Shown: positions 13,504 to 14,251 of the stretch, one piece after another
How positions within the stretch are numbered: the first letter of the stretch is position 1
Layout: the number at the start of each line of letters is the position of its first letter
DNA from: Sphingomonadales bacterium
Lineage (GTDB): Bacteria; Pseudomonadota; Alphaproteobacteria; Sphingomonadales; Sphingomonadaceae
Assembly: GCA_028289885.1 (NCBI GenBank)
Contig: JAQGKX010000085.1
Coordinates: 1-62,154, forward strand
Direction: 5' to 3'
Length of the DNA: 62,154 nt
Translations under genes and position numbers: made by a program
Notes under the pieces: model-generated
Databases searched by the model: none
Seen by the model: the letters and a program-made list of their open reading frames with translations, nothing else
What the model was told of the DNA's origin: nothing

Positions 13504-14132
13504 TCCGTCCCTCAATGCGGCACGAACTGACCTGCCTGTCGCCGGTTGCGGGCGTCGATGAAGCGGGCAGGGGACCACTCGCCGGCCCGGTCGTCGCGGC
13601 GGCGGTGATCCTGCCAGCAAGGGGTGTCCCGCGCGGGATCGACGATTCGAAGAAACTGTCCGCAGCCGAACGCGCGCGCTTGCACGACCGGCTACAGGTC
13701 TGCGCGATCATCGGCGTGGGGATCGTCGAGGCCGACGAGATCGACACGCTCAACATCTATTGGGCGACGATGAAGGCGATGACGCTTGCCGTCGCCGCGC
13801 TCGGACAGGCTCCCGCGCATGTCCTCGTTGACGGCAATCGCCTGCCGAAATGGGATCATGCCGCGACGGCGATCATCGGAGGCGACGCACTGAGCCTGTC
13901 GATTGCCGCAGCTTCGATCATCGCCAAGCACGTCCGGGACACCATCATGCTCGCCCATGCCCGCGACTGGCCGCACTACGACTGGCATTCGAACAAGGGC
14001 TACGGCTCACCCGCGCACCTCGCCGCCTTGCGCGAACATGGGCCCTGTCCATTGCACCGGCGCAGCTTCGCACCCGTCCGTGACCACGAATTGCGAAAAC
14101 CTGAGTCTTTGGTGCAACACGCCATCAGTTGA
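13491..14132 (+). CDS. rnhB: Ribonuclease HII
   Basis: RNase HII removes RNA from RNA-DNA hybrids and single ribonucleotides from DNA. The catalytic motifs are present: AGVDEAGRGPLAGPVVAAAV (Asp-Glu), DDSKKLSAAER, VLVDGNRLP, and ASIIAKHVRDTIM with YDWHSNKGYGSPAHL. TTG at 13491 is chosen because a CGGAGG ribosome site lies eight bases upstream. The alternative is ATG at 13515, which has no visible ribosome site. With the TTG start the gene overlaps the 3' end of thiD-VOC by 13 bases and gives 213 residues. Confidence 0.93.
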   Translation: MARVIRPSMRHELTCLSPVAGVDEAGRGPLAGPVVAAAVILPARGVPRGIDDSKKLSAAERARLHDRLQVCAIIGVGIVEADEIDTLNIYWATMKAMTLAVAALGQAPAHVLVDGNRLPKWDHAATAIIGGDALSLSIAAASIIAKHVRDTIMLAHARDWPHYDWHSNKGYGSPAHLAALREHGPCPLHRRSFAPVRDHELRKPESLVQHAIS

Positions 14133-14251
14133 GTCCCCGTTGTTGCGAGGCCACCATATACAGTGGCAGACTCGTTTCGTTCTCGTAAGCTTAAACCAAC
14201 TCTTAACACGCGGTGTTAACTACGTCCTTGACCCGGAGTCCGCTCGGACTC
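14103..14251 (+). promoter_or_regulatory. Cluster of five GANTC methylation sites upstream of ccrM
   Basis: GAGTC/GACTC occur at 14103-14107, 14131-14135, 14169-14173, 14236-14240 and 14247-14251. That is five in 149 bases, against roughly 0.6 expected by chance. GANTC is the target of CcrM itself. In Caulobacter, methylation of GANTC sites near the ccrM promoter shuts the gene off outside late S phase. The same feedback is likely here but is inferred. Confidence 0.7.
14203..14219. promoter_or_regulatory. TTAA-containing palindrome in the ccrM promoter region
   Basis: TTAACAC-GCG-GTGTTAA is a perfect 7-bp inverted repeat with a 3-base centre, 66 bases before the ccrM start. A further TTAA lies at 14191-14194. 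CtrA sites are TTAA-N7-TTAA. The gaps here are 8 and 9, so this is either a degenerate CtrA site or the operator of another dimeric regulator. Confidence 0.45.

Follow-up and report, generated by a model that had tools for sequence, protein, structure and literature searches.

The five GANTC motifs in front of the methyltransferase gene ccrM in this sphingomonad probably belong to a composite ccrM control region, in which a core promoter bearing GANTC would be combined with a NrdR-type operator; protein binding, the direction of regulation and the effect of methylation are here read from the arrangement of the DNA. From its layout, the cluster may connect DNA methylation with the supply of building blocks for DNA synthesis. 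The window, that is, the whole stretch of DNA that was analysed, comprises 62,154 bp of the forward strand of contig JAQGKX010000085.1 from the Sphingomonadales bacterium assembly GCA_028289885.1, a metagenome-assembled genome (MAG) that is 84% complete and 6% contaminated.

The gene at the centre of this region, ccrM (14285–15397, plus strand), encodes a GANTC adenine methyltransferase of 370 amino acids, whose profile matches include PF01555 (N6_N4_Mtase, 4.6e-67) and a C-terminal RAMA domain (1.6e-19). The NCBIfam CcrM model matches the product with an E-value of 7.5e-182 and 603.9 bits, under its 830-bit cut-off; despite this score it is the top-scoring NCBIfam model and spans 347 residues. 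The start is likely to be the GTG at 14285, because VSLLQKL aligns by eye with MGV.EK. of relatives, and the start at 14213 given in the list of open reading frames is the less likely option. Immediately upstream lies rnhB, encoding ribonuclease HII (13491–14132, plus strand, with an approximate start; PF01351, 1.3e-40), whose TGA stop codon occupies 14130–14132 in an enclosing reading frame of 13326–14132. The GANTC cluster spans the 3′ end of rnhB and continues to 33 bp before the GTG.

The sequence-only reading had reported five GANTC sites in 14103–14251, which is correct, with starts at 14103, 14131, 14169, 14236 and 14247, and had placed a TTAA palindrome inside the cluster, where GTTAAC is indeed found at 14215–14220. 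It had also put the expected number at ~0.6. The excess stands, but the expectation is lower: the whole window holds 91 GANTC, against an average of 314 in dinucleotide shuffles, so the motif is scarce elsewhere in the window, and its own density predicts 0.22 rather than 0.6 per 149 bp. The Poisson probability of at least five sites in 149 bp is 3.4e-6, or ~0.0014 after multiplying by window number, and in the whole window 14103–14251 is the only stretch of this length with five, the next non-overlapping one having four. The first (GAGTC, 14103–14107) is within the last codons of rnhB, upstream of the first of two NrdR-type boxes, and the second (GAGTC, 14131–14135) sits at the inner edge of that box and shares bases with the rnhB stop codon, so the sites are not all intergenic. 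The site at 14169–14173 (GACTC), the fourth of the family pattern, follows directly after the second box and opens the block GACTCGTTTCGTTC.

Conservation of the sites, whose absence from relatives the same reading had named as counting against it, is extensive. In same-genus genomes, ccrM is detectable in five of six, with GANTC counts of 5, 4, 6, 7 and 7, and the cluster is kept in all five loci; the closest of these relatives (95% CcrM identity) has all five sites within 2 bp of their window positions, and a counterpart of the first site lies within 3 bp in 5/5. A scan of named genomes gave at least 594 ccrM loci, and the best 80 of these, nearly all from sphingomonads or their kin (two are named only as Proteobacteria or Alphaproteobacteria, and L001 and L013 are one MAG), carry 3–10 GANTC in the 300 bp upstream of ccrM in 80/80 cases, with a mean count of 6.2 when the window is included. 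Counting from the FADPP codon, the GANTC density in these 80 loci is 19–35 per kb in the bins between −350 and −150; elsewhere between −1500 and +1200 no bin exceeds 3.75 per kb, apart from those at −400 (6.25) and +650 (9). A class-wide draw of 190 genomes gave 137 with a ccrM match, from which 60 upstream stretches were taken and 54 were countable. These hold 0–8 GANTC per 300 bp (mean 3.9). Five of them have no site, among which L133 is a contig that is cut short, and same-family genomes account for two of the 54. Clusters of GANTC in front of ccrM are therefore a common feature of alphaproteobacteria, and the counts in sphingomonads lie toward the top of the range. The middle base of the motif is G or C in 530/633 GANTC before sphingomonad ccrM, compared with 231/908 elsewhere in those loci.

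Two of the five sites fall within a likely core promoter. A −35 element, TTGACC (14228–14233, plus strand), has its counterpart in 95/96 sphingomonad loci, as TTGAC at 40–90 bp after box 2, and a weak −10, CACAAC (14251–14256, plus strand), is placed by a spacer of 17 bp from TTGAC, with CAnnnT at this position in many relatives. Across 95 sphingomonad loci, with a 17-bp spacer, 80% have A at −11 and 53% have T at −7; a scan of the window against the sigma-70 consensus recognised no promoter at this place. The spacer contains GAGTC at 14236–14240, offset 8 from TTGAC, and GACTC at 14247–14251, offset 19, whose last base is the first position of the −10. This arrangement recurs, with GANTC at +8 or +9 together with +19 in 57/95 sphingomonad loci, at +19 alone in 13, with no GANTC in 5 and in other patterns in the remainder; TTGAC followed by two GANTC is also visible by eye in many loci outside the family.

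The spacer placement of 14236 and 14247 fits methylation-dependent control of ccrM, for which Caulobacter provides precedents. Passages of PMC3667746 describe an enhancement of GcrA binding by methylated GANTC, and, in parts of PMC4287350, start sites with a GANTC between the −10 and −35 elements are active at 40–60 min, although no more than 31% of the cell-cycle start sites bound by GcrA lie within 50 bp of a GANTC. Caulobacter ccrM itself is named in a section of PMC3973325 as most probably under direct methylation control. The extended Caulobacter GcrA motif YGAKTCG (as given in part of PMC7987155) is matched by 0/5 of the window sites when both strands are inspected by eye. The window's own genome has PF07750 (gcrA) matches on two contigs, with best E-values of 2.2e-24 and 4.3e-24; these two gcrA-like genes of the MAG are on contigs C200 and C66 (L081, L082), and one may be foreign.

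The remaining sites are associated with a second element. Aligned sphingomonad ccrM upstream sequences show ACACCaCnannatnTtGAGTC...GACTCaAnATcTnGtg, resembling two boxes for NrdR, a repressor of ribonucleotide reductase that senses dATP, and the NrdR box is a 16-bp palindrome of the ACACwATATnTwGTGT type. This consensus was used for the first scoring of box pairs, at offsets of 31–33. In the window, box 1 (ACGCCATCAGTTGAGT, 14119–14134) has an imperfect core, and box 2 (CCACCATATACAGTGG, 14151–14166) follows at an offset of 32, leaving a spacer of 16 bp. The pair ranks first of 186,321 candidates in the window, scoring 28.0 against 26.5 for the next, and is also first of the 186,321 with a matrix derived from boxes upstream of nrd genes. 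In 97/103 sphingomonad ccrM loci, pairs at an offset of 31–33 are equalled by at most 1/40 dinucleotide shuffles; the offset profile has its maxima at 33 and 31, and the offset is 32 or 33 in 92/97 pairs. A good pair is absent from 7/103 loci (L031, L051, L078, L182, L190, L192 and L194), one of which, L182, is a same-genus relative of the window.

The pair ends ~60 bp upstream of the −35 in sphingomonads, and 61 bp before TTGACC in the window, a gap that makes direct blocking of this promoter unlikely; no second promoter over the boxes was recognised by eye or by a promoter scan of the window region. A coding-region control proved uninformative, with 66/81 controls passing; shuffles, ranking over whole loci and permuted matrices took its place. 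Outside the family, the coding part of rnhB was removed before scoring, and a significant pair was then found in 14/44 loci, or 12/42 once the same-family genomes L199 and L201 are set aside, so the NrdR link is not class-wide. Such a class-wide link had been considered and was rejected, several of 40 pairs in the outside set being a coding motif of rnhB (ACGCAGGATATGG..). In sphingomonads the rnhB-trimmed test covered 5/103 loci, those in which the motif that locates the rnhB end was matched, and it is passed in 5/5. By these motif comparisons, the putative NrdR link at ccrM is firm only in sphingomonads. The repressor gene is present in the window's own genome (G000:C81:26805-26930, 1.8e-20) and in 59/60 class genomes, missing from one that is 84% complete, and the presence of nrdR therefore does not discriminate.

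A further connection comes from the upstream regions of ribonucleotide reductase genes. A matrix was built from the boxes, 20 in all, that precede nrdA in the 10/19 nrd loci of relatives that had a pair score of at least 26 and were chosen using the consensus given above; it reads CCACTATATATAGTGG. In the set of 77 loci that reach 4.5 kb, four shorter ones being left out, this matrix ranks the ccrM pair first in 76, the window included. Sixty column-permuted versions averaged 13.5 loci, with a maximum of 71 of 77, and the unpermuted matrix at other offsets gave 29–63. Motif and offset therefore both matter, with one permutation coming close at 71/77.

The comparison was also made in reverse and without a NrdR model: 46 ccrM loci, selected purely for the geometry of their GANTC sites, supplied a second matrix. 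This matrix places its top pair in the zone upstream of nrdA in 14/16 nrdA loci, the zone having been set after pair positions there had been seen, whereas 300 permuted ccrM matrices averaged 6.7 and one reached 14 of 16. At other offsets the same zone was found in 8–15 of 16, so the zone count shows the box motif upstream of nrdA, not its pairing. The pairing is addressed by the offsets: when 20–50 were allowed, the best offset in the nrdA zone was 31–33 in 10/16 loci, against 1.5 expected, and the mean pair score in that zone peaks at 31 and 33, as it does upstream of ccrM. In the window's own genome, PF02867 (nrd) has no match.

GANTC is interwoven with the ccrM boxes. For 97 sphingomonad pairs scoring at least 25, from 103 loci, GANTC overlaps the inner edge of box 1 in 76/97, of box 2 in 76/97 and of either in 94/97, and it overlaps an outer edge in 1/97. 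Pairs upstream of nrd genes (score at least 26) have GANTC at an inner edge in 0/10 and at an outer edge in 2/10. The inner half-sites at ccrM are therefore written GAGT(C)/(G)ACTC and are methylatable by CcrM. The window keeps the inner-edge site of box 1 (14131) and, unlike most relatives, lacks that of box 2. Inner-edge GANTC is the strongest hint of a putative interaction between methylation and the box-binding protein. Upstream of nrdA, L161 and L171 each have a GANTC overlapping the outer edge of a NrdR-type box.

Between the boxes and the core promoter there are further conserved features. CtrA-like TTAA half-sites start at 14191, 14203 and 14216 (14191–14220) with gaps of N8 and N9; a full TTAA-N7-TTAA(C) CtrA site near the −35 was not found by eye in this stretch of the window, and control by CtrA through the half-sites is possible. 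TTAAC or GTTAA is present between the boxes and the −35 in 57/95 sphingomonad loci. An extra GANTC between box 2 and the −35 occurs in 25/38 loci without TTAAC half-sites and in 21/57 with them (Fisher p 0.007, for loci that share ancestry), as if one control replaced the other. The block after box 2, GACTCgTTTcGTTC, is as conserved as the boxes themselves; in the window it occupies 14169–14182, and its GTTC is kept at 85–89% in sphingomonads.

The spacings of the GANTC sites are themselves regular. Successive spacings in sphingomonads cluster at ~10, 19–20 and 29 bp and are phased with R 0.73 at a period of 9.75, against null means of 0.14 and 0.20; the same phasing is seen in 94 sphingomonad loci with distinct arrangements, and sites upstream of the −35 give R 0.75, a value without a null comparison. 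The window spacings of 28, 38, 67 and 11 are each at most 1.3 bp from a multiple of 9.75. Outside the sphingomonad set, in 50 loci from which 9 near-duplicates were dropped by hand, phasing is R 0.30 at a period of 11, with p 0.0015 under a uniform null and 0.064 under an exponential null.

These features can be assembled into a working model. The core promoter, with TTGACC, a 17-bp spacer, CACAAC and two spacer GANTC, is poor in its −10 and probably relies on GcrA-sigma70; given this reliance, its firing would depend on the methylation state written by CcrM. About 60 bp upstream of the −35 would stand the candidate NrdR operator, with two 16-bp boxes three helical turns apart and GANTC woven into or beside them, and the CtrA-like TTAA half-sites would lie between the two parts. 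With an ample supply of DNA precursors, NrdR carrying dATP and ATP would occupy the operator and lower ccrM output, and a fall in dATP would release ccrM along with the ribonucleotide reductase genes. Since GANTC and boxes share bases, binding of CcrM and of NrdR should be mutually exclusive, or each should alter the access of the other, and the dNTP pool, the passage of replication and methylation would be tied into one loop. The specific proposal, that sphingomonad ccrM carries a methylatable NrdR operator at which dATP-loaded NrdR represses and box-edge methylation by CcrM alters NrdR binding, is put forward tentatively. If true, the NrdR-type operator would add a metabolic input, with the level of the methylase set by the supply of DNA precursors, and repressor and methyltransferase would be rivals for shared bases in front of the very gene that encodes the methyltransferase.

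The sequence-only reading had suggested self-control of ccrM by methylation state. The two spacer sites (14236 and 14247) fit this, but the other three surround or overlap the box pair, so self-control of this kind does not cover the whole element, and methylation autoregulation is plausible but incomplete. Taken as the full account, it would have GcrA, with CtrA, reading GANTC at the promoter, and the pair would belong to another regulator or be a relic. In its favour are the class-wide clusters before ccrM (mean 3.9 per 300 bp in the 54 of 60 loci counted), the two GANTC in the promoter spacer, the Caulobacter precedent (section of PMC3973325) and the up to five GANTC in Sphingomonadales ctrA promoters (part of PMC8116508), but it leaves unexplained the conserved CCAC...GTGG outer halves, the C.A.AT.T.G core and the 31–33 offset, as well as the match in motif and offset to the region upstream of nrdA, and as a complete explanation it seems rather unlikely. 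By analogy with other phased methylation sites, the GANTC might instead form a helically phased array on which a cooperative reader of methylated or hemimethylated GANTC docks, holding newly replicated ccrM off or on. The sphingomonad phasing (R 0.73 at 9.75), which the window spacings also fit, speaks for such an array; against it, the loci have common ancestry, so that their spacings depend on one another, box geometry accounts for some of the phasing, and phasing is weak outside sphingomonads (R 0.30, 50 loci). An array of this kind is accordingly judged improbable.

Two further explanations fare poorly. Box 1 and box 2 show partial complementarity, and the dyad could in principle be an RNA hairpin or the rnhB terminator, with GANTC as incidental parts of the stem; in the window, however, the fold has a z-score of −0.88 and is equalled in stability by 37/200 shuffles, and the scan of 13950–14450 for terminator-like sites was empty, so this reading was rejected as very unlikely. 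Chance or compositional clustering, conceivable for so short a motif, has to contend with the corrected P of ~0.0014 and with a cluster in 80/80 relatives (best 80 of at least 594 loci); it was rejected, conservation in relatives refuting it, and is hardly credible. The composite region, with its GANTC-bearing promoter and its NrdR-type operator, is the reading that is retained as probable.

Comparison with known systems places the locus among several precedents. As described in part of PMC12051234, NrdR tetramers loaded with dATP and ATP prefer box pairs with 15–17 bp spacers and require both nucleotides for binding, and operators of ribonucleotide reductase genes consist of two 16-bp boxes with such spacers (here 16 bp). 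The centre distance of about three turns is likewise shared, and motif and offset equal those upstream of nrdA in relatives. The ccrM pair differs in preceding a DNA methyltransferase gene, in carrying GANTC on its inner box edges and in lying ~60 bp upstream of the likely −35 instead of over the promoter. The Caulobacter GcrA/CcrM promoters of ctrA P1, mipZ and podJ, as presented in passages of PMC3667746 and PMC4287350, resemble the core promoter in having GANTC in or near the −35/−10 of a housekeeping-type promoter; here there are two GANTC per spacer and more in the upstream operator-like element, without YGAKTCG.

The Caulobacter ccrM promoter also has GANTC nearby and TTAA-type half-sites, and thus shares both with the present locus, along with the gene itself. 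It is CtrA-activated (part of PMC2877005). The present locus differs in the 4–7 GANTC found per same-genus locus and in its box pair, which is unmentioned in the relevant portions of PMC2877005 and PMC3973325. A DNA-binding repressor over GANTC, in principle keeping CcrM off, is known from the hypomethylated sites shielded by MucR (section of PMC5172544), although protein and motif are different and shielding at ccrM is only putative. Methylation-linked spacing has its counterpart in Escherichia coli, where SeqA binds phased hemimethylated GATC clusters. The likeness, near-helical spacing of methylation sites at a methylation-linked locus, is an analogy only, the site being GATC instead of GANTC.

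Published observations touch the proposed link from several sides. Caulobacter nrdA is one of the essential genes listed in part of PMC3973325 that have conserved GANTC and whose regulation is disturbed when CcrM is missing, and the phenotype of a Caulobacter nrdR deletion has been read as raised dNTPs through ribonucleotide reductase (main text of PMC12186491, where ccrM is unmentioned). In Sphingopyxis granuli TFA without oxygen, ccrM drops 7-fold and nrdZ rises (passage of PMC6472365), a response other than the one expected from simple NrdR derepression; nrdZ may have other control. CcrM timing in alphaproteobacteria is described, in the portions of the PMC papers cited here, through CtrA, GcrA and DnaA, and counts of GANTC upstream of cell-cycle genes, as discussed in part of PMC2877005, do not of themselves allow methylation control to be derived. 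The word 'methyltransferase' is absent from the main text of a study of Proteobacteria NrdR regulons (PMC5343134), and its supplements or RegPrecise may list ccrM. Within the literature searched, a scope outside which those supplements and RegPrecise lie, no description was found of a ccrM gene with a NrdR-type operator in which GANTC sites are embedded. That ccrM is controlled by methylation is known in outline, and the methylatable NrdR-type operator is likely to be the new part.

Elsewhere in the window, a second GANTC cluster at 57719–57824 contains four sites with spacings of 41, 20 and 40. It lies upstream of a minus-strand MaoC-like dehydratase gene (57204–57683) and shares bases with the 3′ end of an MscS-like gene; the two names come from inspection of the translations by eye.
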